From Selaginella tamariscina (taxonomy: Eukaryota; Streptophyta; Lycopodiopsida; Selaginellales; Selaginellaceae): 64,000 bases of DNA. The notes beneath the pieces were generated by a model. The model did no database searches. It was not told the origin of the DNA and saw only the letters and a program-made list of their open reading frames with translations. The stretch's first letter is position 1; each line of letters begins with the position of its first letter. The stretch covers positions 370,399 through 434,398 of the forward strand of contig PUQB01000182.1 in assembly GCA_003024785.1 (NCBI GenBank). Reading direction: 5' to 3'. Below, piece by piece: positions 33,160 through 61,462 of this stretch. Position numbers and translations under genes: made by a program.

Positions 33160-34361
33160 ATGGCTGCTTTCAAGTTTCAATCTTTTCTTCTTGCTTTTGC
33201 TGTGTTAGCCACTTTTTTATATTTGCTTATTGTAGTGCGCAAGATGGTAAATGTCCACGTCCAAAGGGTCAATGCTGTAGCAAGTATGGTTATTGTGGAA
33301 TCGGCAATGCTTACTGTGGCAAAAATAACTGTGCTTCCCAATGTAAAAACGGCTGTTTCCCAGGTGCTCTTTATCATTTTATTATATAACATATATATCA
33401 TTTAATCTAAAGTTAATTACAGTTAAAGATATTAAAGATCCAGCGAATTAAAATTCATAATAAGTTTGACAGGCGTGTACTTATCAACTGGAAAAACCAA
33501 GCCTATGAATGAGTTGAATATGGGTGACAAGGTATAACTTGTTGTACATCTTCTCAAATTAATCACGTGTGCATCTCATTTAATGCCCCGGTGTTTGCAT
33601 ACAGGTGGCAGTTTCATACGGGAAGTACATCACACATGAGGAAATCTATGCTTTTGGCCACAAAGATTCTCGAGATGGTGGGTGACGACAATACTAAAAC
33701 CCAGTGAATATTTTGTCCCAGTCATGTCAAGTAAGTGTGAGCGATCACTGATTGGTATTTATTACATTACGACATTCTTCAGGCGACGGAGAGTTTATCC
33801 ACAAACGGGCAAGAGATGTCAAAGCTGGTGATATTCTTACGGCTTCAAATGCTTCCCTGCACACCACTATTCCTTACATTATCAGTGGTAATGGGAGTTT
33901 TATATATTGTGAGATTTGGTCTTAATTATTTAAATGTGCAGGAATCTCTAAGGTGGACAAGGATGGACTCTACAAACCATACACAACGAGCGGAAACATA
34001 ATCGTTAACGATGTTACAGTTTCATGTCAGAGCGAGTGGTTCCTGGAGGGAACATTCGACGCATTAAAGATAACGCACATGTTACACGCTGCTTACCAAG
34101 TTGTTTTGCTTCCAGCTCGGTTACTGTACAAGACACTTGGAAAAGGGGTCTCGGCGAAAAGGAGGCTCCGGCTCAGGAGGCTTCATATTATTCTAGTATA
34201 TTCGCGGATATTCTAGGGTTATTCTAGCATATTCTAGCATATTCTCAAGAATATTCTAGAATATATAAGTTTTTTTAATATGCCGACTGGTTTAATATAC
34301 GCCGACTGGCTTAATATATGCCCATTGGCTTAATAAGACATTATCCTAAACCCTAAACCAT

Positions 34362-37300: not shown

Positions 37301-37515
37301 TGTAAAAGACAAACTGGTTTGATGCATTGCCTTCTGGTAACAACTCCACATCTTCTCCAGAACTCGCAGAAACTGACATCAATTGAACCACATGTATACT
37401 GAACCAACAAGGAATGTTGAAAAGCAATGTGAAGATCATGTTCAAACACAAAAGCATTTCCATCTTCATCGACTGGGAAATCTTTGTCAATGCCTTCATA
37501 GGTAACTCTGGCCAT
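34362..37515 (-). CDS. Mutator-like (MULE) transposase, frameshifted as written
   Basis: Starts at ATG 37515 (MARVTYEGIDKDFPVDEDG). The N-terminal half has a Cys/His DNA-binding region (HLQCINPTCPYLAFEK, IKCKHCGEEP, IHRGVHQHPV, near 36740-37000), like WRKY/FLYWCH-type zinc folds of other MULE proteins. The DDE core follows an intron near 36120-36185: TFMINGLFWTTRTAYQTG (near 36225), AGFMSDEAGAIWIALRQVF (near 35975, second Asp) and RSCLFHFMQSCVRQV (near 35890, the C/H motif). A further Cys-rich segment (KCLGMNQEG, LCGKPIGY, WFCPKDSGC) lies near 35000-35140. The C-terminal SWIM zinc finger is SCSCSTFQKSKSWSPCVHMY, near 34505-34565. Several frame changes separate the parts. The 9-bp target duplication agrees with the family. 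Confidence 0.82.
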
Positions 37516-37599
37516 GACAACGCAAGGAGAAAGCTCGGTGGTTTAGGAAAGCAAAGCAAAAGATTAAACACACTTTCTCTTACCAAAAAAAAATTACAA

Positions 37600-38030
37600 T
37601 CGTTAACAATAAACGTGAATACACGTTTGTATATAATTAATTCTATGCTGCCCAGTTCACAGTGTTCTTAATGATGTCCTCTCTAGTATCACCGATTTAA
37701 TTTAATTTCTACCTTTTATGATTTGAAATATCTTCACATTTACCAATTATTCACATATTTTAAAATAAACCCTAAATATTAATGTCACATTTATTCCGTA
37801 GGGTTCACTGTTTTCATTGCGGCTAGGGTTTTTTGGTAGATAGGGTTTACTGTTTCCATTGCGGCTAGGGTTCTTTCAATCTCAGATCTGTTTCCACTGC
37901 GGTAGATCCAGAGGGTTTCTTTAATCTCAGATCTCAGAGTTACGGTTTCCACTGCGGCGCCATCCATTTCGACTCGATTCGTGCAGCGCCCAAGTATAAC
38001 AATGGAGATTTCTGTGCCGATTTAGATTCT
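37600..38030. promoter_or_regulatory. Shared divergent intergenic region of the Mutator-like element
   Basis: Lies between the transposase start (37515) and the first leader repeat of the plus-strand gene. It contains a repeated phrase TTGCGGCTAGGGTT at 37817 and 37860 and GATCTCAGATC-type repeats near 37880-37935. It probably holds both promoters; no definite core motif can be assigned. Confidence 0.45.
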
Positions 38031-39050
38031 CGGCACCATCCTGCTCAGCCGGCGGCCACAAGGTATGTGTAATTTCTGTATTTTATGATTTGCTGCTCAA
38101 AGTATTTCTTTTTCCAGAGATATAGGGTCTTCTTATTTGTGCCGACTGAGAGCAACGGCACCATCCTGGTTCAGTCGGCAAACACAAGGTATCGTCGATT
38201 TATTTATTTTTTTCCTTGCGGCTCAAGTATACGTGTCACAATGTTTTTTTTTCAGAGTTAATGGGTCTTTCCATTTGTGCCGACTGAGAGTGACGGCACC
38301 ATCCTGGTTCAGTCGGCAAAAACAAGGTATTTTCGATTTGTTTTTTTTTGCTTTCTGGCTCAAGTATTCGTATCACAAGGTTTTTATTTTCAGAGTTAAT
38401 GGGTCTTCCCATTTGTGCCGACTGAGAGTGACGGCACCATCCTAGTTCAGTCGGCAGCCACAAGGTATGTTCGATATATTTATTTTTTGCTTTCTGGATC
38501 ATGTATTCGTATCACATTGTTTTTTTTCAGAGTTAATGTGTCTTCTCATTTGTGCCGACTGAGAGTGACGGCACCATCCTTCTTCAGTCGGCAGCCACAA
38601 GGTATTTTGAATTTGTTTATATTTTGCTCTGCGGCTCAAGTATCCGTATAACAATGTTTTTTTTCAGAGTTATAGTGTCTTCCCATTTGTGCCGACTGAG
38701 AGTGACGGCACCATCCTTCTTCAGTCGGCAGCCACAAGGTATTTTGAATTAGTTTTTTTTTTCTTTGCGTCTCAAGTATTTCTTTTAAAACAGTTAATGG
38801 GTCTTCCCATTTGTGCCGTCTGAGAGGGACGGCACCATCCTATCTCAGTCGGCACCATTATCTCTTCTGTGCCGTCTGACAGAGTCGGCACAAACTATCT
38901 CAGTCGGCAGGTTTTTTCTTCTACATCTCTCTGCCGACTGAGAGGGTCGGCAGCATCTAGCTTGAGTCGGCAGCCACAAGGTTAGTCATCTTTGTTTGTT
39001 TTTTTATTTTGACTCCTCATCAATTGACTTGTGTGTTTACTTTCCAGAGT
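38030..39050 (+). repeat. Tandem ~137-bp leader repeats: mini-exon with hairpin motif plus intron-like part
   Basis: Six or seven units. Each has an exon-like part of about 70 bases with TGCCGACTGA, then ACGGCACCATCC, then TCAGTCGGCA, ending CACAAG. It is followed by GTATNT and a T-rich intron-like part ending TTTCAG. Candidate donor GTs are at 38063, 38189, 38327, 38465, 38602, 38739 and 38981. TGCCGACTGA and TCAGTCGGCA are inverse complements, so each exon part can form a stem. Unit length is not a multiple of three, so a coding role is unlikely. The last part (38800-38970) has a denser, shorter version of the motif. The same motif occurs near both element ends. Confidence 0.85.
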
Positions 39051-39057
39051 TCCCAAA

Positions 39058-42000
39058 ATGGTGAGAGCTTCAAAACGTCTACTAGAGACTGCGCCTGATG
39101 AAGAGCCACGGGAAGAGAAGAGGATATCGAAGCAGAAGCGAGGCAAGAGAGGAGAACCATCTAATGTACCAAAGGAGGATCCTCCAGTGACTCAGTCTGG
39201 AGTAGTAGCAGTTGAGCAAGAACAGCCTCCACCAACAATCACAGATTTCCCGGAGAGCTCGTCGCAGTTGCCTCCTTCATCCGCTGAGGTTGCAGTCCTG
39301 AACGAGCAAGTGCAGATGACAGAGGCAGCTGAAGCTAGCGAGGACGACTTGGAGGAGGCAGTCAGCAAAAAGAGAGGCCGCGGGAAAGCTGATTCAAAAG
39401 GCAAGAAGGCGAAGAGCGATAAGGAGCCGAAGGAGTTATACAGCATACCGGCGAGCCTGCATTTGGAGAGCTCAGCAAACCTGCTCGACAAAATTACTAT
39501 CAAGGGACTTGGTGATCCTCCTGATGTGCCCATCTGCAGAATACATTCCAACGAGGTGGTTCGACGAGTGAACCCAGGGGACTTGGACAGGCTGGTGTCA
39601 TCGTTGAAGAAGGCTGGTTATCTACGCAACACGGGGTCCATCGGAGATCGACTCACTGCTGAGGAGCTATCGGAGCTGTCGAAGGACACGTTCAGTACGA
39701 GCAGCACCGGTCTTTCGAGCAAGCTCTTACTCAGCCGGAGTACAAACAGTGGGCTTCAAGGCTCTCAAACAGGAAGTTTAGCTGCTGGGACGGGAACCAT
39801 AGGCTACAGGCTTTGCAGAAGCTGTACCGAGAGGATGCAGAGGACAACCAGCGATGGGCTATTCGCGTTCGATCGAGTTTCATCTCCACGGAGAACCTCG
39901 ACATTCTTCAACTGGTTTCGATGTTCCAATCGATTAACATGTGAGTATTTTCTTTTCTTTTTGTTAAGAGTTTAGACTTACAGTTTCGTTGAACAGATCT
40001 TCAGCAACATCTGTGGAAACAACGCTACCACATATTCTCCTCGCTGTAAAGGCGGTCTGCACTAGTACAGAAGGAACTCAGAAAATCCTCGAGTCACTCA
40101 CGGAGGTTGATCGTCTTGAGGTGCGGAAGTGGAAGGAGAGTTCATCAGGAAAGACGGCTTGGCATCCTCTTCCGAACCTGATCTGCGCAAAGATACTTTT
40201 CAAGGTAACCTCCGATTTAATTTATAGGAAAGAAATTTTTAACTTGTTCTATGTGCAGAACGAGATCGACGATGATCTCGACAGAGCAGTCACCAGTGCT
40301 AAGGGCAATCCACAGGTTGAGGTGAACCTAAGCAGCTAGTATACAAGAAGCATGACAAGCGTATGCACAAGTTCCTCTCCATCATAGACCCAGACTTGGG
40401 GGAGGAGTGGTTCCAGAAGGTGACAAACATCTCTCATAAGCAGTGTCGCTGGATGGGCATTGAGAAGCTGTATGCGATGTCAAGGGCGAAGATTCCAAAC
40501 ATGCTGCGACTCCGATACCTCAACAAGCTCACCCGTCTCGAATCCAAGGCAGAACAACAGACACTTGGGCTACCGGGCATGCAGGACAAAGAGTGGATCA
40601 AGTGGTTCACCTTGGACTTATATTGGAAGGCTGTGCGCGAGGAAGCCATTCAGATCCTTAAGGGGTTGCGAGAGGATGGTGAAGAAGTTGGAACGGATGT
40701 CGACTTCATGAGCTGGTTTGACGAGATGAGAATTCGGAGCAAGTGCCTGGTCTTTCAGCCCTTCCATGACTGCATACGGTTCACTTATTCGATGGAGCCG
40801 AATGAGTTTCTGGAGCGTGAGGAATCTGCGCGTCGGATGATATGGAGGTAAGCTTTCAATCCAGCATTGCTACTGTCTGACTTTGTGTTGCAGGTTCATA
40901 CTGGCGAAGCAAATGACACCGTCCCATACGATGAAGCTGTGGACAGATCATACAAGCGAGCCTCACATGTGGTCGAAGAGCAGAGGAGCTCTAACACCGT
41001 TCGAACGGGAGCATGTTCCATTCTGGCTCGACTGTCCGTCGCAACAGCCACCAGCTTGGGAGAGCACACTATTCGACATGCACGCCAATGATCTACCAGC
41101 GATTCTTTGGGAGCCAGAAGAAGTAGAGGCTATCAAGAAGAGCAAGATGAAGAAGACGGTGCGGAAGACAACTACACCTGCAAAGGGATCGGGAGCGGGA
41201 CCAAGCTCTTCTACAGCACCTCCGCCAGCATTCGACTTTACAATCAATGAGGTACAGCCACTTGTAGCTAGTTTGGACATCAAGGACGACCTGATGACCT
41301 TCATCCCGACCCTGGCTGCATCCCGTGGATCCTACGACCTAGCTGTGTGCGACATGGAGGAGATGAGCAGGTCTTTCTTCGAGCCAGGTGCTTCCCAGAC
41401 AGAGGTGTACACCAAGCTCCGAGAACAGGTTGACAGACTACATACGGTTGAGTCACAAACGTTGTTCCAGGAAGTGGTAGGTGAATACGGCTTCAACCTC
41501 ATCATCCTCGACTTGCCCAATGAGCTTGTATATGGAGGTGCTAGCATCAACAAGGACATTGTGCAGCTAGATCCGGTGAAGTTTGAGGAGGCCTTGCAGT
41601 TCAGTGGAATGCACTTGGCAGCGAGTGGTTTCATGGTCGTCTTCGCGAGTTCTCCTTCTGTTTCGGCGGTGATTCAGGCGGCTGCAGTAATCAACTTGGA
41701 GGTTGCAGGGACTTACAGCGTCTACCGTGCACGAGGCTGGGGATACCGTGACAAAATTAAGGTAAGCTAGCTATTCAAGTTCAAGTTTAACTTGGTCTAT
41801 GTGGCAGGATAACTTGTTAGTTCTCTTGGTGCTGCAAAGCTCTGAGAAGAAGTCGAAGAGGCCAAACCCTCTGGCGTTGACGAACACGATCCTCGTCGAC
41901 ACTGCCGACCGTTATCAGGAGGCTTGGTAAGGAAGTGCTTTGCTATGTTTATCCTAATGGAAGATTGTGCAGGATTATGATTCAACCGAAGAGTGTTCGA

Positions 42001-42270
42001 CTCATGCAGCTTTTGATCGAGCGTCTCAGTAGACCTGGCGACCTAGTCTGGGATATTGGTTCCGGAACCGGGTCATCATTGTTAGCTGCCGTCGAGCTCG
42101 GAAGGAATATTATAGGAACCGAGAAGAGTTTCGAACTCTCTAGGTTGGCAACAAACAAGCTTGCAGAGAACATTAGACCAGAAGAGTTACCTACTCAAAC
42201 ACCTCCACGTCCAAGCGTAACTGGTGGTTCGAGAACTGCAGCTTTACTTAAGATGAAGAAGAAACTTTAG
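39058..42270 (+). CDS. ParB-like domain fused to permuted DNA methyltransferase, in the Mutator-like element
   Basis: Starts MVRASKRLLE at 39058. A basic, disordered nuclear-type N-terminus is followed by a ParB/Srx-like domain: VPICRIHSNEVVRRV (near 39527) and, after a frameshift near 39690, CWDGNHRLQALQKL (near 39790), equivalent to the ParB GEHRR box. Introns of 46-56 bp lie at 39941-39996, 40205-40258, 40848-40893, 41762-41807 and 41927-41972. A helical linker leads to a beta-class (permuted) N4/N6 methyltransferase fold: motif IV-like LIILDLPNELVYGG (near 41500), the pre-motif I helix MIQPKSVRLMQLLIERL, then motif I VWDIGSGTGSSLLAAVELGR and IIGTEKS (near 42050-42125). Motif IV is DLPN instead of DPPY, so catalysis is doubtful, while the SAM-binding GSGTG is kept. 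Eukaryotic introns rule out bacterial contamination. Confidence 0.75.
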
Positions 42271-42464
42271 CTAATGTATATTGAGTAATAAATTAAGCTA
42301 ATAAAAAAAAAATTAAAAAGAAATACAACAGTTTTAATAGAATTCTTTTTTGCCGACTGAGGCCAATACTGCCGACCAGAAAGAATATTCCAAAATATTC
42401 TAGAATATTCTTGAATATTCGAGCCCAGGCCTCCTGGGCCCCAAGCCTCCAAAATGGCGACACT

Positions 42465-45257: not shown

Positions 45258-46363
45258 ATTATCTTGTAACTAATTTAACAAGTTTATTTTAATCCATTAC
45301 ATTAATATAATGGAAAACAATTTCAATTAACAAGAATAATTTTAGGCTCTCAATTGCTTGTGTTATCATGACTTCCTTGTGTTCTCAACTCCATGCATGT
45401 ACTTTACCTTATTGTAATTTTGATTTTGATACATTACTAAAACACAACCTAGTGCAAACATCCTTAAATATGGCTTGATATAGAACATAAAAAATATTTA
45501 AATGTCAAAGGAAATTAGATAACATTATTGTAGATTAGGTACTTGCATGACCAATTCAAATCAGTGTAGAGAATAGGTGTGGTGGGTTAAATCAAGTAGT
45601 AATGTCTGATTTATTGGATTTGTTGAACATGTTTATAAGATGATAAATAAAAGTAGCATTTTTTTTACGAGTTATGTAACAAGTTATATATATGAATTAG
45701 TGGTCAGAAAAGATACACAATACAATAAAGTTATTTTAGTCCGTGTGCATGTAGGTTGTACACTCTATAATGTAACGCACAATTGCAAATATTTAAAACT
45801 ATTTGAGCGTTCTGGTATTGATAAGAGTTTAGCACATTAAGTCATTTAAGATACTTATCAAGTTATAATTCAAAATTTGAAGTCTAACATTAAGTTTTTA
45901 ACTTCGACAAAAAAAATGTAAAGAGTAATTGATAGTTTTAAGGATCACACTAGGTTGGTAAACATTGTATATTGTATCAATTATTCACAAGTTAAGATTG
46001 AACCACTTTCAATTGATATATGTATTATAAATACCACAAACATAGCATTGTTCTTCAAGTAGTAGCGTATTATGTAGAGCTATGAACCATGAATTGTTGC
46101 CATGCTCTAAAACTATACCACTTGGAAGACAAAGGTTATCCATGCATCTCATAGATAATGACACCTTTTTGCTTGACTCTCATAAAACGAGTCTACAACA
46201 AAAACTTTTGAAAAGCTTGAGTGATCATTAAACAAGCTTTTTGGGCTTCTAAAAAGTATTAAGTTTATTAGTTTTGTCCTTTTTGATATTATTTTGTAGC
46301 TCATTTTCATCTTCATTTAGGAATAAAGATGAAAATGAGTCTTAGATATCGTATATGCATTTT

Positions 46364-46390
46364 ATGCAAGTTGTAACTAAAATGGGCATG
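46364..46390 (+). repeat. Left terminal inverted repeat of the 15-kb element
   Basis: Starts ATGCAAGTTGTAACTAAAA and ends TGGGCATG. It pairs with 61432-61458. Inside it lie AT-rich GAATATTC-containing repeats (46456-46508). Confidence 0.85.
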
Positions 46391-46860
46391 GCTATAATCC
46401 CATTTCCTAATAATTAGCAATTTTAGCTATTTAATTAGTATTTTCTAATATTAAAGGAATATTCTTTAGAATATATGTTTGAAAAGAGAATATTCTTTAG
46501 AATATTCTATTTTGTATTCTACCCTTTAATAAATTATAGCATTCATTGAACAAAAATTAATAACATTATAAAAGTAGAATGTATTAAATTATATAATATA
46601 TTGCCTAATATAACAATTAAGGAAGAGCATAAGAGGTACATTATATAAATATTGATGTTGTTATTAAAATATTAATATTTAAATATAACATTATTAATTA
46701 AAAATTTGTAGTAGTAATAATATATATATAAATTCATAATAATATAGTCAATCTTCCATATCATTTTTTAAATTTATATAGTTAAGTATACAATTTGGTA
46801 CTATTATTAAAGAGTTTATAATAATTATGAATATTAAATATATGATATTTTTATAATTTT

Positions 46861-46950
46861 GTAATTGCTTTAAGCTTCAGAAAACATACATTCCCTTGCA
46901 GTTTTGTAATTGCTTTAAGCTTCAGAAAACATACATTCCCTTGCAGTTTT
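46861..46950. repeat. Tandem duplication of 45 bp at the 3' end of the transposase gene
   Basis: The unit GTAATTGCTTTAAGCTTCAG... appears at 46861-46905 and again at 46906-46950. The transposase stop codon lies in the second unit. Confidence 0.9.
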
Positions 46951-49900
46951 GTTAATCGTGACTTTATCAACGCTTCTTGACATCCACCCATATCGAATGG
47001 ATTTAACATTTATAAAACATGCTGGGTCTTTTTGATTGGGAGACCATGTTTTCTCTAGGCATCCATTATATCTTTCGCTCTTCTTCTCGTGTCGCCTTTT
47101 TGTGGTTTGAACCATGCAACCTTAACAATACTATTTTTTGTGATTACTTCAGGTGTGTCGATAATTTGACCCATCCAAATAGGCTGATTATATGACGCAT
47201 CTGGAGTAATGAGAACCATCATTAGTTTTTGAAGATCCTTGCAGCAATCAAAGTATGCTTTAGGTTTTTGGTTCCTTTGTGCAACAAAGTGTGGGGTTTG
47301 CACTTCCACATCACTACTGGCTTCTATGTCGTCTATGCTCAGTGATGTCATTTCAATCTCCTCTCGCCACCTTGTTTTAGGCCAGAAAGGGTGTTGCAAT
47401 TCTGTACTTGTGACAGTAGGCCCTTCCAACTCTCGAACAACAGTCTCCCAATAGTTGACCACATGCTTATATAGTTCTGAGTAACCAGTTGCCTTATCAG
47501 AATTCTTTGGCATCGATTTTTGAACCCATGCCACATATTTTTGATGCCATCAATAATAACCTCTTGTTCCTTGAGTTGGGCACTCAATGGAATAGGGTCT
47601 GGTTGTCCTTATGGGAGAAGTGGCTTTCCATCCTCTCCACTTTTGAAGAGCATTAAGCCCTCTTTCGGTAACCACTCCTGCTCTGATGGCCGTAACTTGT
47701 ACTGCATAATAGGTATACCATCTCGTATAGAGAAAAAGAATTGTAGCGGCACAAGGTGACCAACTAAAGAATCACTCCCTTCTTTTATATACTCCTTGAG
47801 AAATTTTTGAAGTCTGGCACCTCAGTCACAAGCAAAGCACAACTTTTTTTGGAGATGCAATTTTCAAAAAGATTCATCATATGCGGTAAGGTAAGTGCAC
47901 TTGTCCTTTTTGTAGAGTTGGAGACCTTGCTGAAGAACGCATCAATATCTTCATGAGTGTGACCAACCATAAGGAAACTGAGCGTGATTGTTTCAAACAC
48001 ACCTTTGGCAACAAGCATTGACAAGTATGCTAGCACATATCTAGAAATAAAAGTAAGTATGAGCTTGAGAACCCTTAAGTAAAATGATTTACCTATTTTT
48101 GTTCTCGCCTGCACAATTATCCATCTGTAAAAGCAAATGACGAGGAAGCTTATTTGATGTTGAGGACACATGTACACTATTTGAGCTAGATCCCTCCACT
48201 GAACCTGAACTCTCAACAGGGCCATCTGTTTTTTGTGCAGGTTGCTGACAATGCCTCTCATATTCCCAAGTAGCCTCAAATGCAGACGTGTTCATGAGAG
48301 CATTATGTAAAGGTTGAAGGTGTTGTTTCTTCACTTTGAGATCACTGATAGGACTTGTCTGTGAGTGGGCTTCAAGGTTTCTGAAACACATGGCTAACGA
48401 CCCAATAATGAAATTGGAGTCGCTAGACCAATGTGGAAGTGAAAAGTGTCCATATGACTCACAACCGTGTCCATGTGTTAGCACACCTGTTAAAGAAATC
48501 GGAAGTTTCATGACATTTCCAAGGCACTTTGGTGTTACAAAGAGCTTTGGAATGCTGGTCTTTGAATGATCCATCTTGTCATGGATCAAGCACAGGTACT
48601 CTAATGGGCGTGACACAGAAAGCATGCGGTGTGCATAGTACTGAGACCAACAAGTTTGTTGTGCAATCATGTGGGCCTCCATCTTCCTTTGAATGGTAGT
48701 GATCTCCACCAAGGTTTTTGCACAAGCCTCTGCAGCCTTCAATGATGTACAAGTGTCACACTTAGAAAAGCTAGAGTGTTTTGCAATCTCCACATCCTTA
48801 AAATGAGTATTCCATATGTTGTTGAAAGTACCAGTGCAGATTGCTTGGAGCCCCATCAAACTGAGGCACTTGTTCACATGTTCACACAGTTTCAATTGAG
48901 TGTAGATTGAAGGTAAAACCTTGAGATTTTCCCTGACCCCTGCATTTGTGGTTCGGCATTTGTGAGGCATCCTGTCTGCATTTGCTTCCACAAAAGCCTG
49001 AGTATCTCTATGGCTGCCATGATGTGAGAGCGGGTTTTGACCAAGCCAGTGTTCCCATGAACTGAGGTTCGCGCTCCATCTAGCCACTCATCCCTCCGAC
49101 GGTAGAACGTGGTCTTTGGGATCCCGTATATACTGTACCAAGCTTGAAGCAGATGGCCACCTTATTAAATACCATGGATGTACTCTGATAACCTTGTCCG
49201 AGGCCATTCCATCAATACACCCAGTTAGTGCAGCATATACAAACTCATGCCTTTGCTTTTGGGTGAGCATACGAAAGACATGTCTACATTGGGTAATTTC
49301 ATTCCGGTCTGCCATCTAACAACACTTCTCTTCTTGCAACAGTCAATCGTGGAAATGCTCGTAACACTTTCGGAAGATGTAGGATCCATCTTTACCCTCT
49401 TGCTGAAACTTGCAGGGGAAGATCTACAACCCATGAATCGCCTTTTTCTTACAATAGGACCAATGCAAGGAACCTCTTCAAATATGAGTTGTTCTTCCGG
49501 GTTGTTATTATTGAAATCCAACCCAGAATATGTTGAACCATCTTGCCGTCTTAATTCAGATGTTCGCCACCTCACGAGGGATCCAGGATACAATGTGCCA
49601 TTAGGTGAAACCTCTGTCACAACTACACCCACGAAGTCGGACCCTAGTTTCTCTTCTGACACTGCTTCCATTGGATTTATAGTTGTGATGATGCCTCTTC
49701 CGACTTCAATCTCACGAAGAAAGAGAATCACCTCATCCATTACAGCAGGCAAGCCATCATCTGGTAAACTCGTGCTACTATTTGTTTGTGACTCTGCATA
49801 TTCTGTGTCAGCCTTGACTTCATCCAAATTCCACAATACAGGAGAACCCTCCTCAAATTCCATTCCCAGAACCTCAACATGCTTGTAAATGGTGTTCACC

Positions 49901-50027
49901 CATACGTACACACAAGATCCTTGGAAATATTGTGACATGATGCATTATTATCTCGAACTTCCACAGTTCCAGTGCCAACTATCTCGTTGTTCCGAAGAAG
50001 ACATACTTTATCTCCAGTATTAAACAT
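46915..50027 (-). CDS. DDE-like transposase of the 15-kb element (DUF7869-type), frameshifted as written
   Basis: A probable start at ATG 50027 (MFNTGDKVCLLRNNEIVG) leads into an N-terminal region typical of plant transposon proteins. An HTH-like segment (YGIPKTTFYRRRDEW, near 49100) follows. The core has KCDTCTSLKAAEACA (near 48740), LIHDKMDHSKTSIP (near 48570), LLLQMDNCAGENKN (near 48115) and, after a 52-bp intron (48041-48092), FLMVGHTHEDIDAFFSKVS (near 47930). From memory the Q-x-DN...ENKN...GHTHEDID pattern is that of proteins annotated DUF7869, probably an RNase H-fold transposase with Asp residues in the first two motifs. The C-terminal part ends at 46915. Frame breaks lie near 49310, 49090 and 47540-47785. 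It is the only transposase candidate in this element. Confidence 0.7.
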
Positions 50028-50180
50028 ATTGTCCTGCACATAAATAATTGTATTATTTATGATATCTGTTTATGCAATATTTCTAAGAAATCTGAATTAT
50101 GGTTACTTAATAATATGCATATGCAATAATACATAATTATGTTTAGAGATAATATCTCATGTTTGATTAATACAACTGAT

Positions 50181-51145
50181 GGGCGGGATTAATCCCGCCC
50201 ACGAATCCCTCCGACGAGGAACGGTCGGCGGGATTAATCCCGCCGCCGACTCAACCCCTTCGGAGAGAGTCGGCGGGATTAATCCCGCGTTGAACTCCCT
50301 TCGACAAGGAAGAGCCGGCGGGATTAATCCCGCCGCCTCTTCCTCCTCGGGGGGAGTCCGGCGGGATTAATCCCGCCGACTCTCTCCGACGAGGAAGGGA
50401 GTCCGGCGGGATTAATCCCGCCGCCGACTCAACCCCTTCGGAGAGAGTCGGCGGATTAATCCCGCCTTGGACTCCCTCCGACAAGGAAGAGCCGGCGGGA
50501 TTATCCCGCCAACTCTCTCCGACGAGGAAGGGAGTCCGGCGAGATTAATCCCGCCGACTCATCCTCGCCGGAGGGAGTCGGCGGGATTAATCCCGCCGGA
50601 CTCCCTTCCTCGTCGGAGGAAGAGTCGGCGGGATTAATCCCGCCGGACTCCCTTCCTCGTCGGAGGAAGAGTCGGCGGGATTAATCCCGCCGGACTCCCT
50701 TCCTCGTCGGAGGAAGAGGCGGCGGGATTAATCCTGCCGGCTCTTCCTTGTTGGAGAGAGTCCAAGGCGGGATAATCCCGCCCACAATTCTTACGACGGG
50801 GAATGGGTGGCGGGATTAAACCCGCACATAACTCTCTCCAAAACTATGATTTCAAAGAGATCTCGGGATAAATCCTGTCTCCAAATCTTTAAAACAGGGA
50901 ACTGGTGGCGAGATTAATCCCGCCACCCCTTCCCTGCCTCCTAAAATGGTTGGCGGGATTAATCCCGCCGACAACTCTTTTTTAATAAATTCTGGTAACT
51001 CTTCATCAGTTGAGAAGGTTATCGACGGGATTAATCCCGCCACTCTTTTTCAGTGGCGGAGAAGCATTGCCCGGGAGATGGTGCGGAGATTAATCCCGCC
51101 ACTTCTTCAAAGAGGCGAAAAAGAATGGCCGGATTAATCCCGCCG
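50181..51145. repeat. Palindrome array 1: GGCGGGATTAATCCCGCC about every 45 bp
   Basis: About 20 copies of an 18-bp perfect palindrome. Exact ones lie at 50182, 50227, 50272 (last base varies), 50317, 50360, 50405, 50580, 50627, 50674 and 50952; the others carry one to three changes. Spacing is 42-47 bp through most of the array. Spacers share GACTCCCTTCCTCGTCGGAG-like phrases in both orientations, so the spacers are themselves partly palindromic. The array starts about 150 bp upstream of the transposase start codon. Each palindrome holds two CpG sites. Confidence 0.95.
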
Positions 51146-52730
51146 CCCCGGTTAACCTAGAATATTAAGTTAAAGGATATTTAAACGTGATAAATCCCTA
51201 ACGGAATATATTATAATCCTAATGCATTTCTAAACCCCTAAATTGTAATTTTAAGAGAGAATGTAAGAGAGTGAATCTTAATAAGTATTTTTAAATTTGT
51301 TTATAATACTTACTTGTAAACAGCACTGAAGGCGCCGTGCTTTCCTATAAAGAATAGCACCCAATTTAATCTCGCTCCTGAGATGATCACTATGAAGAAA
51401 AAAGAAGATCTAAAGAGTGAAAAATACAGAAATGAAGAAACCCTTGCCAGAGAAAGAATCTGAATTTGAGTGGAAATTAATGCATTTTCAAATTTACATG
51501 TCAGACCGACAATACATATGTCAGAAATTCAAATTTTTAAAAAGAACAGAAAATAAAATTTAAAATGAGTTGACACAAATATCCGACACTCTGACATATA
51601 TACTCTCCAGTTCCAATGAGTATTTTAAAATTGCATTTAATGTTATTCAAGTGATTCAAGCTGTTTAATATTACGAAATTTTAGACTATATTCTACATTC
51701 TTAGTATTCAAGTATATTTATATTATATATATATATATAAATATACTTATACAATAAATAAATTGATATATTATTATGTATCATTTAAAATATATTCATA
51801 GTCTGTTTATTATTATTATTTTCTTAATTACTCGAGTATTTAGTTTTCATTTCCTAGTATCAATGGGATATTCTTTAATATTTTTAATATTTGAAGAATA
51901 TTCTAATATTAAACCTGATTATCATAATTAAATTAGTCTTGTTCTTAATTATTGCAGTAATTATTCTACATTTGTATATATTAATGGGATTTTCTCAATT
52001 AATTTGTTATTATTTCAAGAATATTCATGTGTTAAACCTTATTATCAATATTAAATTAATACACACTATGAACATATTTTAAATTATACATAATAATACA
52101 TTTTATCTAATATATAGTCATATATAGTTTTAATAATATATATATTAATATCATTTCCTTAATTACTTGAGTAATTAATCTTCTTTATATTAATGGGATA
52201 TTCTTTATTATTTTCTTATTATTCCAAGAATATTCCAATATTAAACATGATTATGATAATTAATTTAGTTAATTATTTGAGTACTTAATTTACATTTGTA
52301 TATATTAATGGGATTTTCTCAATTAATTTCTTATTATTTCAAGAATATTTCAATGTTAAACCTTTTTATCAATATTAAATTAATATATATTATTAAAACT
52401 ATATATGGCTATATATTAGATAAAATCATATATTATTATGTATAATTTAAAATATGTTCCTAGTGTGTTTATTAATTTTATTTTCTTAATTATTCGATGT
52501 TTGTTTTGCACACATATATAAACACAATCATAAATTTACACACGCATTACAAGAACTTACAAAAACACATATGCACACACATGCACAACCCTAAACCAAA
52601 CTGAAGAAATAGGTTGCTTCTTTATTGAAAACATCATGTTCAACGCATGTATGATATATGTACTCAATCTGTGTGACTGTATGTAACACATTGAATTTAC
52701 ATGTGTAATATTTATATTAAGCTTGTTGGG
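51146..52730. other. AT-rich middle segment of the 15-kb element
   Basis: No gene. The part near 51300-51480 may hold a 5' leader exon of the transposase. From 51870 to 52390 a loosely repeated phrase (ATTAATGGGATATTCT..., TTATTTCAAGAATATT) occurs about four times. Confidence 0.5.
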
Positions 52731-52734
52731 AGCA

Positions 52735-52763
52735 AACCCTAAACCCTAAACCCTAAACCCTAA
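52735..52763. repeat. Interstitial telomere-like tract (CCCTAAA)4
   Basis: AACCCTAAACCCTAAACCCT then AAACCCTAA. This is the common land-plant telomere repeat. A single CCCTAAACCC also occurs near 53202-53211. Confidence 0.9.
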
Positions 52764-53847
52764 TATGTAACACAATGAATTTACTCATGTAATATGTATG
52801 TATGTCTGTGTGTATACACGTGTGCATGTATATATGTGTACTCTGTATATATAATGTGTACTTTCTGTCTTCTCTCATACATACACACCATGCATGATCC
52901 ATGTTAATATGTACTGTCTCTCTTCTCTCAAACATACACACCATGCATGATCTATAATATGTACTCGGTCTCTCTAATATTATGTACTAATATGTATGTA
53001 TGTCTGTGTGTATAATACACACCATGCATGATCCATAAATGTACTGTCTCTCTTCTCTCATATACTATGTATGTATATCTGTGTATAATATGTGTAAGTA
53101 TATATGTGTACTAATATATGCAATGTGTACAAAAATAATTTTTCAACACTCTCTCTTCTCTCATACATACACACCATGCATGATCCATCCTAAATCCAAA
53201 ACCCTAAACCCATGTAATATGTGTGTATGTCTGTGTGTATACACGTGTGTATGTATATATGTATTAATATATGCAATGTGTATGTATATTGATACACATG
53301 AAACTTTAACACTCTCATGGACACACACATGTTAAATCCCTGCATGATTTATATTTTTGAGGTGTATGTGATACACCCACGCACACGCACGCGCTAATAA
53401 TATAATGAAAGAATATTCGTTTAGGGCGAATCTATATTTTATTCTTTTTAGGGTTTAAGTATATTCTCAGAAGGAATATTCTATTAGGGTTGATATATAT
53501 ATTTAATTCCTTTAGGGTTTAGGTATATTCTTAGGGTTTCAAGAGGCGGCGGCTGTGAAATCGGCGGCGGCGGCTGTGCACATAGGTGAGATCTGTGTGT
53601 GTGTGTGTATGTATATATGTATAGGAGTGTGCGTATAATTTTATTTATTAGTTTTATCTCTCGCACACACACGCACACTCCTGTGTATGTATATGTGTGT
53701 GTGTGTGTTTGTTTATCTGTATGATTTTGTTTCGCTCACACACGCATACACACGATATACATATACACATATATATATATATACCTATATACATATACAT
53801 ACATATATGTGTACCAGTATCTGTAAATTTTTTTTTATTGATCTTGC

Positions 53848-53910
<63 letters not shown>

Positions 53911-53978
53911 TATGTGTACCAGTATCTGTAAAAATTTTTTTATTGATCTATCTCTCCCACACACACGCGCACTGCTTT

Positions 53979-54036
<58 letters not shown>

Positions 54037-54724
54037 ATCAATGCATATTAACAAATAGTATACAACAGTTATATATATGCTTATATATTCATATGGTATA
54101 TATCTATATACACACACATATATATGTGTGTGTTTTCTGTATAATTTTATTTATTTATTAGTTTTATCTCTCGCACACACACGCACACTCCTGTGTATGT
54201 ATATGTGTGTGTGTGTGTGTTTGTTTATCTGTATGATTTTATTTGTTTCGCTCACACACGCATACACACAATATACATATACACATATATATATACCTAT
54301 ATACATATATACATACATACATACACTAGTTTATATATATGCTTATATATTCACAGACTCTCTCTCTTTCTCTATAGATTATATATCTATATACACACAT
54401 ATATATGTGTGTGTTTATCTGTATAATTTTATTTATTTATTAGTTTTATCTTTCGCACACACACGCACACTCCTGTGTATATATATATGTGTGTGTGTGT
54501 GTTTGTTTATCTGTATGATTTTATTTGTTTCGCTCACACGCATACACACGATATACATATACACACATATATATACCTATGTACACACATATATTAGGTG
54601 TACCAGTACTGTATATTATTTATTTATCTATCTCTTGCACACACACGTACACTCCTATACATACATACATACATACATATATATATATATACACACACAT
54701 ATATATATGTGTGTGTTTTTATCT
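52764..54724. repeat. TG/CA and TA microsatellite block with ~300-bp modules
   Basis: Alternating purine-pyrimidine runs, (CA)n up to about 38 bases at 53851-53890, (TA)n and (GTAT)n. A longer module (GTTTGTTTATCTGTATGATT, then CGCTCACACACGCATACAC) recurs at about 53705, 54220 and 54507. An earlier module built on ACACCATGCATGATCCAT recurs at 52885, 52938, 53026 and 53170. No coding sequence. Confidence 0.8.
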
Positions 54725-54736
54725 CGCTAAGCCCGA

Positions 54737-56290
54737 GCGGCGGGATTAATCCCGCCGCTATAGTTTATAGCCTCGGCGGGATTAATCCCGCCGCTATATG
54801 GTTGGGGCCATGGCGGCGATTAATCCCACCGCCGAGGCCCTTCAGGCATGGGTGAGCGGCGGGATTAATCCCGCCGCCAAGGCCCTTCACGCAGGCCATG
54901 GGCGGTGGGATTAATCCCGCCGCTCTACGACAAACCGAAGAGCGGGGGATTAATCCCGCCGCCCATGGCCTGCGTGAGGGGCCTCGGCGGCGGGATTAAT
55001 CCCGCCGCTCATCCATGCCCTGCGCAGAATGCGGCGGGATTTATCTCGCCGGCAATGGCTTGTGTGAAGGTTCTAATGGGCGGATTAATCCCGCCGGATT
55101 CCACGCAGGGCATTTACAGGGATGGGCGGCGGATTAATCCCGCCGCCGAGGCCCCTCACGCAGGCCATGGACGGCGGGATTAATCCCGCCGCTCTTTGGT
55201 TTGTCGTAGAGCGGCAGGATTAATCCGGCCCCACGCTCATGCCCTTCGCGGAGGGCGGCGGGATTAATCCCGCCGTTCATGTCCTGCGTGAATTCCCTGG
55301 GCGGCGGGATTAATCCCGCCCCACCCATCCCTGTCCAAAAATGCCGCAGCCAATATATATGTGTGAGCGCATGATTTACGAGAGGGCGGCGGGATTAGCC
55401 TCCGAACCTTCATTACCCGGTGGCGAGATTAATCTCCGAACCTTCATTACCCCATTGGTATGTTGAATCAATCCCGACTAACTCTGTCTGAGACGGAGAA
55501 GGTTTACAAAATACCAATGGAGGGAACCGAGAAGGGTGGTGGAATTAATTTCACCATCCCTTACATGGTGGGCGGGATTAATCCCGCCGCGTACGCATGC
55601 CCTGCGCGGAATCGGGCGGGATTTATCCCGCCGCCATTGGCCTGCCTGAAGGGCCTAGGCGGCGGGATTAATCCCGCAAGATTTCGCACAGGGCATTGGC
55701 GTTCGGCGGGATTAATCCGCCGGACGCCAATTCCCTGCTCGGAATCGGGCGGGATTAATCCCGCCGCCATTGGCCTGTCTGAAGTGCCTAGGCGGCGGGA
55801 TTAATCCGCCCGATTCCGCGAAGGAATTGGCGTCCGGCGGGATTAATCCCGCCGCATAGGGACCGAGTGAATCCGCCGCATAGGACCGAGGTAAATTATA
55901 TTCCTGGGCGGCGGGATTAATCCCGCCGAGTCTTCAATGCCTGTTGGAGGAATGAATCCCGCCACCCTTCCTTTGTTTTCTCCATTGGTGAGTCACCAAT
56001 CCCAAACGTTTCTGTCTGAGACGTAGAAGGTTTTCAACATACCAATGGAGAGAATTGGGAAGGGTGGGGAAATTCATTTAACCATCACTTACATGGTGGG
56101 CGAGATTAATCCCGCCTCCTTTCTGGAGTCACTGAAGGGGTGTGAGAAATAAATCCTGCCCAGTTCTCTCTGAGACCGAGAAGGGTGGCAAGATTAATTC
56201 CGCACTCCCGTTCAAGGCCTCCAGAAAGGTGGCGAGATTAATCCCGCCCACTCTTTCAGGAGGCATTGAAGGGTGGCGAGATTAATTCCA
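54737..56290. repeat. Palindrome array 2: GGCGGGATTAATCCCGCC repeats
   Basis: About 25-30 copies of the same palindrome as array 1. Near-perfect ones lie at 54739, 54775, 54858, 54989, 55173, 55257, 55303, 55571, 55748, 55836 and 55910. Spacing is 36-90 bp. Copies get more degenerate toward 56290 (GGCGAGATTAATCCCGCC at 56098). Spacers again repeat in both orientations (GCCCTTCACGCAGGCCATGG and its inverse). The array ends about 330 bp before the ParB-like gene's first exon. Confidence 0.95.
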
Positions 56291-56394
56291 TGTGAATATA
56301 TATGTGTATTAGTATATATAAGTTGCATATCTCATTTTATTTACTTTTATCATCTTATCATAATATTTCGAGTAAAAGCTAGGAATCTATGTAA

Positions 56395-56481
56395 AACTGT
56401 CCAGAGCTCACATTTGTGGTGGTTCTAAAACGAAATGTTATCTTTCTTTTGCACTAACACAAATGTGAGCTTCGGACAGTT
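56395..56481. ncRNA. Hairpin with 24-bp stem (candidate small-RNA precursor or tiny foldback)
   Basis: The left arm (56395-56418, AACTGTCCAGAGCTCACATT then TGTG) and right arm (56458-56481) are inverse complements except for two adjacent bases. The loop is about 39 nt. Size and near-perfect stem fit a plant-type small-RNA precursor, but no expression evidence exists. A miniature inverted-repeat insertion is the alternative. Confidence 0.45.
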
Positions 56482-56623
56482 AATTACGTCTACTTCTCTC
56501 TGTGTATTATTTTTGTATATTCGGGTTTATACAAGTGTGTGTGCGTTTTTATATAATTTATATTTATAGTGTATTATTTTGCAGAAGGACGATTTGATCA
56601 AACAAGGAGATCGAGTCATTAGT

Positions 56624-59600
56624 ATGGAGTCGTCGTCAAATTCTGGGTAAGAATTAAAATAAAATCTGTTATACTCGGATACTTGAACTAATCATTTTTG
56701 TATTCAGATGTGGAATTGAGTGACATTAAAGACAAGAGCAGGAGAAGAGATGGGCAGGGGGATTCTGGAATCAACTTGGCCATATTTTAAGATAAATGGG
56801 AAGCGCATTGGAGCAACCATGGTTGCTGTCAAATTAACCTCTGTCACATCTCATGGACAAGCAAAACAATGGAAAGTAGATTCGCTAGTCAAGCACCCGA
56901 AAGCAGGCTGCGAACCCAGATTGGACGATGCTCGACAGATATGCCTTGTTCCATCCAATGTCACGTTCTCGGATCCAGAGGTCGTCAGTTACAACATTAA
57001 TCTCGGGTGGTTTTGTCGACTTGTGGATAATGACGTTCACGTGTTCACTAATGATGTTGACCTTGGAGTTCTTCTTCAACTCAACGAAAGCCCATCTATG
57101 GAGGGGATCCATCTGGATGTCTACTTCGAAGATCTTCAGACTCATCGAGTAGGTGTATTGTCAGGAGATATTGCTTCACAATACAGAAAATCAGCAAGTG
57201 GAGCAATCTTCCCTCTTCACATTGAAGAAGAACACAGCGACATCATAAGGGAGATTGAGAAGGTGGCTCGGTCTCAGGTTCTCTACAGATCACGTTCAAT
57301 TTGCTTAGGAAGCTTCGGGAGCTGGAGGTGTGCCGAGAACACTAGAACAGCTGCAGTCGGGGATCACACATGTTGATTCGGATCGCAAAAGAAAATCATC
57401 AATCGTTTTGTCAGCTGCACCTGTGGCATCTCATGCTGCAATAAGTCACAAGGAAATGATGTTGGATGATAAGATTTATCCTTGTAGGGTTAAATATTGC
57501 AGCGTCAACCCAAACTTCAATTACAGGCCACTCAACCAGGAACGTGTAGCTGAGCTCATGGAGAAGATGAAGGACGACAATTCTTATACCGTTCCACATA
57601 ATGCTGTTTTGTGTCCATACTATGAAAGAAGGAAGGGTGCTGACAAAGTCTGGATCACAACACCAGAACAACTCATGAAGATTCAGACGGAGAATAAAAG
57701 ATCTATCAAGTACTACATCATTAGTGGCCAGCACACAATAACGGCAGCCCAACGACTTCTCGATGAACACAACAAAGGAACGATGGCAACAAAACTTTCC
57801 GAGCATACCCGTGAGAAGCTGACAAAAAGATCGGCGTTTTTAGCTAAGCCGAATCTCACAATCGAGCAGTACCATAAGTTATCGGCGGAATGGGACGCTG
57901 CCGACACCAACCACTACAACAGCAAAATATGGGAGAAGTTTAAACACACGCGAGCCGTGTGGGAATCTCTTCAGCGACCACAAAGAGCTACCGCAGGGAA
58001 TACACAATCTGCGGAATACCGGGTAAGCAAATTGTTTGGGCGGGATTTATCTCGCCGGTATATTAATCTGTCTTTTTCCTCAGAGAGTTGAAGAAATTGC
58101 AGCAGTTGATTTTGCCCAGGTGGGCGGGAAGGAAACATCATTTCTGATGATGTTGATTTCTTGCCCCGAAGATAGGATCTTTGCCAAATGGTTGGGGATT
58201 ATGGAATCCTTTTCAAAAGGAACACTGAAGAAGAAGCAGACAAGTGAAGGGGCCCTCAGAAAAGTCTGCAAAGAAACCCAGTAAGACGCCGAAGGCTAAG
58301 TCTGTTCAATCTACAAAGGATGTAGACAACGATTTCAAGCTCACATGGTTGAAGCCTTTAAATGGAACAACGATGGAGGAGATGGAAGTCTTGGCTGATT
58401 TGGTGATCGATGGCAAACTACAAATTAATAACAGCAGCCCAACCTCTCCTTTTCATCTCAAGGCAATGGAGTTGAAGACGGTCAGGCATTTCAAGGAGTG
58501 GTTGGGAATACACTGCCACAAACTGGGTTGGACCTCGACTTCAACATATGAAGAGGTCAGCAAATATTTGCATGTGACGAACGATGATATGCTTGTCGAA
58601 TGGGTGAACCAATCGGAAGATCTAGGCAAGAATCTATTGCACGCCAACGCCAAAAAGGAGAACATTGGGATGACGCCTTCTCTTATGGCAGTCCTTCAGC
58701 AGCGGAGAACCGAATTGAACCTTATAAAGGAGGATGCTACGAATCACGACAAGCCCTACAGATGTTTGTTGTTAGATTCGGAGACTTTATGGGGTAACAT
58801 CACTGCTTGTAGGAAACCGTTTCAATTGTTCGTGATGGATCGGCGGGTGTCAAAAAATCTTTCGACAGATAGGGCACTAGAGGATCTGGTGGAGAAACTT
58901 AGCCGTGCAAGCATATACATAGAAGGTATTTATTATTGAATTCATGCTTGCGCTCTTCACTGATACCTACTTTTTCAGGTATTTATTTCTTGATTCTTGC
59001 TCATGTCACCGATACTTTTGCCTTCGCCTTCGCCAAGAAGAATAGACATCGTTGGACAGGATTTTATATGAACGATGCTAATCCCAAGTGCATTGATACT
59101 GTTGTTCACTTGGTTGTTAGGAATGCGCCAAACAATTTCAAGCTTCCAAATGACTGGCCAGGCATCTGTTTGCACTCCAACGGCCCTGAACCTCCATCCG
59201 ATACACCGATAGGTATGAGTGACGTATTCGGCAATGTACGTTATCCAAACATTACAAGTCAAGCGGCACGGAGCATCGTCAACTTGATCAGGGGTCCTCA
59301 CAGTGATGCGTGGGTTTTTGACTACTGCACTAGGGGGTCCGTCTTGAAGGAGTGTTACCTTCGGCATACATGTGTGTTTGCCGTTGAGAAGGATAAGACC
59401 ATGGTTGAGGACCTGAACAAGTGGATAGATTGGGTCTCAACTGAGTACCCCAACGATCCATAAAGGCGTATTTGAGAAAGTTCCCTCCAGATAAGTGCGA
59501 TAGCTCTGAAGGTGAATCTGGTTCAATCTCGGAGTCTGAGAACGAACATCAATCAGATATTAGACCGGAAGTTATCTCGAGGAGTACAGAACATTCGCAC

Positions 59601-59723
59601 ACTCCAGGACCCATGGAAACATCAATAGAAGATGCAGAAGATCTTGAACCATCTCACAAGCGGCTTAGACCTTCTTCGCCTCATTCAGAAGGTAATAGCG
59701 AAGAAGAATTGATAATGAATTGA
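56624..59723 (+). CDS. ParB-like domain plus degenerate DNA methyltransferase-like domain, in the 15-kb element
   Basis: Probable start at ATG 56624, with introns at 56647-56707, 58023-58083 and 58926-58978. An N-terminal region of unknown fold (IYFEDL-like strands, 56720-57300) is followed by a ParB-like domain: DDKIYPCRVKYCSVNPNF (near 57467) and YYIISGQHTITAAQRLL (near 57712), matching the ParB GHRR box position. A linker (58290-58720) leads to a permuted methyltransferase-like end: YRCLLLDSETLWG (near 58760, motif IV position, no DPPY), IYFLILAHVTDTFAF, and WVFDYCTRGSVLKE with CVFAVEKD (near 59310-59395, motif I position, Gly-poor). An acidic Ser/Glu tail follows to 59723. Key catalytic residues look lost, so a binding role is more likely. 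Frameshifts lie near 56720, 57305, 58250 and 59463. Confidence 0.65.
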
Positions 59724-59995
59724 TAGAGTGATGAATAGTTGTAAATGAGTGTAACATAAGGCATTTTTGTATATTTCTTTTATATTTGTACAGAAAATAA
59801 ATTCTCAAGGATTAATGAAGCTTTTAGTTCAAACATGGGTCACACATTAACAAGGTAAATAATATACCTTGATAATTTTAAGGTCAGCTAATTATCATTT
59901 TGCAGATGTAATGAAATAATTGAGAACATGGATTTTCAGCATTGCCATGAGGTAAGAGAGGGGTTTGGCGACAATTTCTTGTGCCACATGTCAGA

Positions 59996-61169
59996 ATGAC
60001 AGAGTTCATGCAGGAAATGGATAATAATGCAGCTCAAAACATCGTTACCATGGGGGCCACTTCAGTTTTTGCATCATCATTTTTATTGGCTTCAGTTCCG
60101 AAATCAATTTCTTCAGCGCATGCAATATCTGAATCTTGTAAGGATGATGTACAATTAAATGATGAAGGGATAGGCAACGAAATAGTGGCAACGGATAAAT
60201 GTGAAAGGGAGCAAACAAGTGATTTGCAAAGTATTCAAGAGGCAACGCTATCTCATGTTACTCATGGCCATATTGTGTTGTTGGATGTCAATGGTGTTCT
60301 GCTTCATCGACAAAGGCCCGAGGATAGAAAAACAGAAATCAAACAAGGAGATTTCATTCCTTGTCATGGTAAATTTCGATATGATATTATTTTTCGTCCA
60401 GGGTTGGATCGTCTCTTTCAAAAGCTTAAGGAGATGGGTGCGCTTGTGGGGATTTGGTCATGCATGCAGATTCATAACTTAACACCGCTGTTGAGTTTAC
60501 TTAAGAAACATTGTAGTGTTGCAGAAGAGGTGATTCGTAAAGATTGGATTTTTGACCAGCGAATGTGTCATAAACCTCTCGAATTTCACAATATAAGAAA
60601 GGAAAGCAAGCCATACTTCTTCAAGAATGAAAGAATAATTGGGACTCATGGGGAGATCAGTCGCTTAAGGATAACGAAGAATGCACATATCTTAGTAGTA
60701 GACGACTCTCCTCAGAAGGCTATGCTCAACCAAAACATTGCTTGTATTCATCCAATCACTTTCGATCCATATTCTGATACCGATATCATGGATGAGCTAG
60801 TGAACTACTTGGATACGTGCCTCAGAAAGAAGAATCTCGAAAATTTTTGTGAGCAGTATCCACCGTATCATACATTTCCTGAAGCTTTTCTTTCTCGTGA
60901 TATTGAATTTTATAAAAAAGGATAGCAACCGGGCGCTTTATAATATTATTCTTAAGGAACGTCAGTTTTTAGATGAGCCTTTATGCAGACCTTCTCTTAT
61001 CACATCTTATGTATTAACAAGGATGGCAACTCCCAATTGCATTCGTGAGAGTGTTAAGTGGTGGCAACAACATCAAGATATTGACCAAAATGATTTGATT
61101 AATCCGGAGAGTGATGATTTAGACAAAATGAAAAGATTTCTTTGTATGATAGAAAGAAAGTATTTATAA
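59996..61169 (+). CDS. FCP1/SCP-like HAD-family phosphatase (transposon cargo)
   Basis: Starts at ATG 59996 (MTEFMQEMDN) and ends at TAA 61167-61169 once a frame change in the A-run at about 60913-60918 is allowed for. The N-terminal ~85 residues are low complexity. The HAD core has motif I HIVLLDVNGVLLH (near 60270), a variant of the DxDGT phosphatase motif as DVNGV. Then follow FRPGLDRLFQKLKEMG (near 60395), IWSCMQIHN (near 60455) and motif III/IV ILVVDDSPQKAM (near 60690). FCP1-like enzymes dephosphorylate proteins such as the RNA polymerase II tail. The family call is good; substrate unknown. The gene lies between the ParB-like gene and the right terminal repeat, with no other host gene nearby. 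Confidence 0.75.
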
Positions 61170-61431
61170 AAAAATTAACATGTTGATAAGAAAATGATTT
61201 CATTTGTAATTATGTTTGATAGTATTTCTTCATTATTGTAAACTATTTTTAGAATAATATGAATATTCTAAGATATTTTAGGAATATTCCTTACTAAGTA
61301 AGGTTATTGAAGGATTAATTAATTAATTAATTAATATTTAAGGCTTAATTACATATTAATTAAATGATTAATTAATAATTAAAACTTAAGTATTAATTAG
61401 TAATTTATTTTATATTCCCATTTTCACGTAT

Positions 61432-61458
61432 CATGCCCACTTTAGTTACAACGTGCAT
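61432..61458 (-). repeat. Right terminal inverted repeat of the 15-kb element
   Basis: CATGCCCACTTTAGTTACAA then CGTGCAT, complementary to 46364-46390 with two mismatches. TTTT follows. Confidence 0.85.
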
Positions 61459-61462
61459 TTTT

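Follow-up and report, generated by a model that had tools for sequence, protein, structure and literature searches.

The 64-kb window analysed here, the whole stretch of 64,000 nucleotides of Selaginella tamariscina DNA (contig PUQB01000182.1), contains a DNA transposon, e1, that carries two arrays of an 18-bp perfect palindrome, GGCGGGATTAATCCCGCC. The arrays are central in e1, near the starts of two divergent genes and not at the element's ends, and within the window the motif is confined to e1. We give a probability of about 0.5 to the reading that the arrays are binding sites of a protein encoded by e1 itself, which would activate or un-silence both genes in the way that VANC does in VANDAL transposons. 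What makes the arrays a candidate for a selected binding site is the confinement of the motif to e1, the retention of the 18-mer relative to the spacers, the retention of its CpGs and its position near promoters.

Two arrays of one palindrome in the middle of e1

At up to 3 mismatches the window contains 43 copies of the palindrome, compared to none in 100 dinucleotide shuffles: 18 in array 1, 24 in array 2 (54739-56248 at this cut-off) and one at 58039. A looser cut-off of up to 6 mismatches, with the best of overlapping matches kept and one overlapping row (50766) removed, gives the sites listed in the table below and leaves three matches in the remainder of the window, namely the copy at 58039 and two others. 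A weight matrix trained on the array sites, in which the consensus scores 37 bits, picked up just two places outside the arrays, with 27.8 bits at 58039 and 1.8 bits at the other; five shuffles peaked at -1.0 to 7.7 bits. The lone copy at 58039 falls within what is probably an intron of the rightward gene, called by eye from GT..AG and the reading frame.

A first-pass annotation of this DNA had described a phased array of palindromes just upstream of a transposase start. That array is real, with 21 sites in 50182-51144 and 17 of the 20 steps between them 42-47 bp long; in array 2, 18 of the 31 steps fall in this range. Period analysis of the site positions gave a best period near 45.0 bp for array 1 (resultant R 0.86), confirming the spacing, and of 44.3 bp for array 2 (R 0.75). 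The proposal that the spacing is close to four helical turns, with the sites on one face of the DNA, did not hold up, as 45 bp corresponds to 4.3 turns of 10.5 bp and the site positions show no clustering at a period of 10.5 bp (R 0.21 for 18 sites and 0.15 for 24 sites). The repeated site does belong to a transposon and does lie near the start of a transposase-type gene: the leftward open reading frame (ORF) has its first ATG at 49938, and site 50182 of array 1 lies 244 bp upstream of it. On the other side, the distance from the end of array 2 is 332 bp to a possible first-exon ATG (56624) and 458 bp to the ATG at 56750. Between the arrays and the ends of e1 there are 3.8 kb on the left and 5.2 kb on the right, and neither end has a site nearby. 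Because the sites are near promoters and not near the ends, the arrays fit gene control better than transposition.

The 18-mers themselves are 91% identical between the two arrays, as judged from the 42 sites with up to 3 mismatches, a choice that favours conserved sites. The spacers show no clear relation between the arrays and recur within one array in both orientations. The 42 sites contain 84 CpG positions, of which 71 are intact and 3 read TG/CA. For comparison, the observed/expected ratio of CpG is 0.38 in the DUF7869 gene to the left of the arrays, 0.33 in Gypsy DNA, 0.69 in 17 spacers of array 1 and 0.50 in 13 spacers of array 2, and an excess of TG/CA is found in the spacers of array 2 only (1.27 vs 0.42 in array 1). 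A neutral satellite, with a palindrome that binds nothing and is multiplied by slippage and inverted duplication, would account for spacers that recur in both orientations, as expected from recombination at palindromes, and for an element in which tandem and simple repeats are common; it fits poorly with one 18-mer that is kept in two arrays whose spacers differ, recurs in a probable intron and has most of its CpGs intact, and we regard it as distinctly improbable. We also considered whether the spacers are self-palindromic as a general rule and rejected this, since p 0.05 was reached by 8 of 41 spacers in one test and by 8 of 36 in another, only a mild excess, and three of these spacers are near-copies of each other.

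The placement of the arrays in a divergent promoter region and the strict two-fold symmetry of the site, which suits a dimer, would also be expected of an enhancer bound by a dimeric transcription factor of the host, and the halves of the palindrome resemble what we take to be E2F-type (GGCGGGA) and homeodomain/GARP-type (GGATTA) sites. Against this, the 18 bp are kept as one block that is longer than either half-site, and the window has no other strong site. A host enhancer is in our view unlikely.

The boundaries of e1 are set by a segmental duplication within the window, in which 24391-25718 matches 45040-46363 (98%) and 25711-28259 matches 61454-64000 (97%). As both flanks of e1 match a copy without an insert, it is the second copy of the duplicated segment that carries e1 as an insert. 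Since the empty site survives intact in the other copy, e1 was most simply inserted after the duplication, and its insertion would be datable relative to it. The empty site places the ends of e1 elsewhere than at the arrays, which rules out that the arrays are themselves transposon ends. Between the arrays, the plant telomere repeat AAACCCT is present four times (52734-52761).

Outside the window, the exact 18-mer was found in 49 stretches of prokaryote contigs and one of viral contigs. Counted at up to 3 mismatches, the sites number one in 45 of the 50 stretches, two in four of them (L012, L018, L030 and L043) and four in one (L011). No stretch is similar to the e1 arrays, and dispersed arrays of this kind were thus rejected for these 50 stretches. 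In two of them, L030 (Pararhodobacter, 4945-5006) and L043 (Rubellimicrobium, 4168-4229), an exact 18-mer and a copy with 3 mismatches lie 44 bp apart, and several of the prokaryote matches sit at contig ends. A two-site core pattern was found in 2 stretches of viral contigs. No relative of e1 was confirmed among 3, 85 and 2 pattern matches in viral contigs. The collections searched are seemingly poor in plant DNA, so that such an absence carries little weight.

The genes of e1 and the candidate binder

The leftward gene or genes of e1 match DUF7869 (PF25273) in Pfam with E-values of 4.4e-24 and 2.9e-12 in two of four pieces, and we infer that the DUF7869 protein is the e1 transposase. A protein search returned one metagenomic relative of the DUF7869 piece (P0001, 53% identity over 52%), and no paper on DUF7869 was found in the literature searched. 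The farthest upstream of the leftward pieces (49944-49225) has a match to Transposase_23 (TNP1/En/Spm) in Pfam at E 0.1, below the cut-off. This match bears on the alternative that the arrays are transposase-binding sites, loaded by the DUF7869 protein to form the transposition complex as TNPA is on the subterminal repeats of En/Spm. Such a role would agree with the element-specific motif, with the binding of CACTA subterminal repeats by an element protein (PMC2613891; here and below, the papers cited are represented by the portions available to us) and with the array motif of a second element, e2, which is found near both ends of that element as well. The central position of the e1 arrays, kilobases from ends that have no site, speaks against it, and we hold it to be distinctly unlikely.

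The rightward gene carries a short motif, SGQHTITAAQRL, that by eye recalls ParB box II, and a C-terminal stretch, DAWVFDYCTRGSVLKECYLRHTCVFAVEKDK, that by eye recalls a degenerate S-adenosylmethionine motif of methylases. The C-terminus is perhaps a degenerate methyltransferase-like end; the alignment has 26% identity, and the resemblance was read by eye, with no match to a methyltransferase profile. In the profile libraries scanned no family reached the cut-off for this gene, the best weak matches being to families other than ParB (DUF6942 0.52, phrog_21535 0.082, PH_BUD3_C 0.078), and two protein-database searches returned no relatives. The earlier statement that the element encodes a ParB-like protein is thus not established.

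If the favoured reading is correct, each palindrome is bound by a dimer of the rightward protein or, less likely, of another protein of e1, and the many dimers next to one another would form a promoter-proximal platform. Such a platform could activate both divergent genes and keep host DNA methylation or silent chromatin off their promoters. The methyltransferase-like end would then serve in binding and not in methylation, which we propose because it looks inactive by eye. Binding, dimerisation and anti-silencing are all steps that we infer for e1.

A bacterial comparison had also been drawn, to parS, the target of ParB. A parS-type partition role for the arrays is unlikely because e1 is chromosomally inserted with a target duplication. 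In a broader form, the arrays could be a parS-like site for partition or cohesion, or an oriP-like maintenance site, that serves an extrachromosomal stage of e1. The ParB-type motif in the gene beside array 2 would fit this, as would the family of repeats of Epstein-Barr virus (EBV), with 20 copies of 30 bp that each contain an 18-bp palindrome (PMC3820569). The chromosomal insertion tells against this form too, as do the lack of ParA among the 20 ORFs of e1 and e2 scanned with Pfam and the lack of profile support for ParB, and we consider it very improbable.

Element e2 and the weight of the evidence

A second element in the window, the Mutator-like e2, appears to repeat the e1 pattern with another motif, less cleanly. 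Mutator-like elements make target duplications of 9-10 bp, and a leftward ORF of e2 has a SWIM match at E 0.11, below the cut-off. Five successive 137-bp units of the e2 array each carry TGCCGACTGA and its inverse, and the motif is also found near the ends of e2, as TGCCGACTGG and CGCCGACTGG at the left and as TGCCGACTGA at the right. Over the whole window the e2 10-mer has 47 matches at up to 2 mismatches, 19 of them inside the e2 array, vs 29.9 in shuffles. Because matches are this common in shuffles, only the array and the exact or near-exact copies at the ends are informative. The 137-bp units (38013-38984) are flanked by GTAT...TTTCAG, as if a 5' untranslated exon and its intron had been duplicated in tandem.

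Downstream of its array, e2 encodes a DNA methylase domain (PF01555 N6_N4_Mtase, 1.5e-9, at 41881-42270; phrog_67 DNA methyltransferase, 7.4e-12). The piece with the ParB-type motif DGNHRLQALQKL matches ddrB-ParB at E 0.14, below the cut-off and behind LdpA_C (0.038) and SLATT_1 (0.042), and a search of PDB sequences with this piece returned no ParB and instead a Mediator subunit at 0.05. A wider reading that takes in both elements is that eukaryotic DNA transposons from different superfamilies each took up a protein of the ParB-methyltransferase type together with a symmetric array of its own, the 18-bp palindrome in e1 and the inverted 10-mer pairs in e2, that the protein is loaded on it in a parS-like manner and marks the promoters of the element or shields them from silencing, and that protein and motif co-diversify. 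We regard this as a tentative and somewhat unlikely extension.

Several findings weigh against binding of the arrays by the rightward e1 protein or against its kinship with the e2 protein. No ParB was found in the pieces of the e1 rightward gene by searches of Pfam, PHROGs, NCBIfam or PDB sequences, the structure model of the piece with the ParB-type motif is unusable (mean predicted local distance difference test score, pLDDT, 37.5), and the gene may be broken near 57300 and 58240. A single copy of e1 was seen. The weak En/Spm-type match (E 0.1) keeps the protein of the leftward piece possible as the binder. The retention of CpG in the sites is a modest argument, because a strong CpG deficit is likewise missing from the rightward gene (ratio 0.75) and from the phosphatase ORF and the AT-rich centre (0.70 each). 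GCCGACT, the core 7-mer of the e2 motif, occurs nine times in e1 array 1, at the junctions of sites and spacers, so that the e1 and e2 motifs are not wholly private. Finally, the tblastn row between e1 and e2 that covers the ParB-type motif has an E-value of 0.093; among the many tblastn and blastp rows between the elements others were equally strong (best 0.081, from the same run) and were taken as noise. As the motif row is weaker than a noise row, kinship of the two rightward genes is unproven.

The features of e1 and e2 are collected in the table. The rest of the window has plant-type traits by eye: AAACCCT repeats, Gypsy elements, a hevein-like ORF and GT-AG introns of about 50-60 bp. Two Gypsy retrotransposon copies in 7213-24390 (7213-13413 and 18131-24390) share 97% identity over 6.3 kb. 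Another transposon is possibly marked by long diverged inverted repeats (66-74%) at 1323-2459 and 4733-5903, whose right arm has an ORF next to it (4288-4752). ORFs at 28363-29335 resemble, by eye, Hint (hedgehog/intein) and hevein-type chitin-binding domains, and this stretch is duplicated in inverted orientation at 32517-34145.

Table 1. Coordinates of the features of elements e1 and e2 in the window.
Feature	Position	Strand	Remarks
Element e1, DNA transposon, 15,095 bp	46364..61458		duplicate without insert elsewhere in window
Target duplication TTTT, left copy	46360..46363		single TTTT at empty site, about 25715-25718
Target duplication TTTT, right copy	61459..61462		read at insert boundary
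Left terminal inverted repeat, 27 bp	46364..46390	+	25/27 identical to right end
Right terminal inverted repeat, 27 bp	61432..61458	-	pairs with left end
Leftward gene(s), DUF7869, putative transposase	47055..49944	-	pieces 49944-49225, 49087-48089, 48291-47785, 47549-47055
Array 1, GGCGGGATTAATCCCGCC sites	50182..51144		21 sites at up to 6 mismatches, 9 exact, median step 45 bp
AT-rich centre between arrays, 27% GC, simple repeats	51160..54730		4 copies of AAACCCT at 52734
Array 2, GGCGGGATTAATCCCGCC sites, different spacers	54739..56292		32 sites at up to 6 mismatches, 11 exact, median step 44 bp
Rightward gene, ParB-type motif	56750..59463	+	ORFs and frames; possible first exon ATG at 56624
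Lone 18-mer site, 2 mismatches, 27.8 of 37 bits	58039..58056	+	in probable 61-bp intron (58023-58083) of e1 rightward gene
NIF/FCP1-type phosphatase ORF inside e1	59951..60925	+	PF03031 1.8e-11
Element e2, Mutator-like	34146..42464		inverted duplicate without insert; 10-bp target duplication CTTGGAAAAG
e2 array, 137-bp units, TGCCGACTGA...TCAGTCGGCA inverted pairs	38013..38984	+	upstream of e2 methylase gene
e2 gene region, ParB-type motif DGNHRLQALQKL and DNA methylase domain	39028..42270	+	pieces in several frames

Known systems with reiterated binding sites

Reiterated sites for an element-encoded protein are known from several systems. The parS site of the F plasmid (sopC) resembles the e1 arrays in having tandem 43-bp repeats with short inverted repeats that are loaded by ParB; it differs in belonging to a bacterial plasmid, in its 16-bp site and in its true ParB, and the sopC system has a ParA and one array. 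CACTA elements (En/Spm, Tgmt*) have reiterated motifs to which an element protein binds or is presumed to bind (PMC2613891), but these repeats are near the ends and the e1 arrays are central. The family of repeats of EBV oriP, which acts in transcription and segregation, consists of 20 repeats in tandem that all contain an 18-bp palindromic site, and has one element-encoded binder; its unit is 30 bp and it belongs to a viral episome. The likeness to e1 is one of site layout.

Likewise, e1 is likened to Sola-1 elements by its layout, with DUF7869 as its putative transposase. Sola-1 elements make a 4-bp target duplication, and e1 has the 4-bp duplication TTTT together with 27-bp terminal inverted repeats. 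For Sola2 a 4-bp AT-rich target duplication is described (PMC3627910). The closest counterpart in gene content is Sola1-1_Ec32 of Ectocarpus, a 21.5-kb Sola-1 element with a gene for a ParB-like protein with a DNA methyltransferase opposite the transposase (PMC12477816). Shared with e1 are the format of a large DNA transposon, an accessory gene opposite the transposase (if DUF7869 is the transposase), the ParB-type motif and perhaps a methyltransferase-like end; e1 is smaller (15.1 kb) and its methyltransferase end looks degenerate. ParB-methyltransferase proteins of algal transposons have been proposed to bind and modify their own transposon, and in the available portion of that paper no target site is named and arrays are not mentioned for Sola1-1_Ec32 (PMC12477816).

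Both the class of ParB-methyltransferase accessory genes and motif arrays bound by transposon proteins are therefore known already. What appears to be new in the sequence is that the two occur together, the candidate target site for this protein class being a perfect 18-bp palindrome arrayed twice in the middle of the element. In the portions of the literature searched we found no description of target arrays for ParB-methyltransferase transposon proteins, and a term search of a review on giant transposons (PMC6431247) did not return the word ParB. Candidate sites in two elements of different kinds make the idea that these proteins bind their own transposon testable.

The system that the favoured reading follows is VANDAL/VANC. 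VANC21 binds YAGTATTAY motifs, often in tandem repeats, which VANA21 has upstream and VANB21 and VANC21 have in their introns; localization of VANC21 is accompanied by loss of methylation (Hosaka et al., PMC5735166). The target repeats of VANC proteins diverge rapidly (PMC10398659). With this system e1 shares a short, element-private motif in dense non-coding arrays, a fast turnover of the repeats and their placement: the e1 sites precede both the transposase-type gene and the partner gene, and one falls in a probable intron of the latter. The differences are that the VANC21 motif is non-palindromic and lies in one orientation, that e1 is known from sequence alone, and that VANC has a DUF1985 domain, which is absent from the Pfam matches of the 10 e1 ORFs scanned. 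If the favoured reading is true, anti-silencing by way of motif arrays arose at least twice, through VANC in VANDAL elements and through a different protein here.
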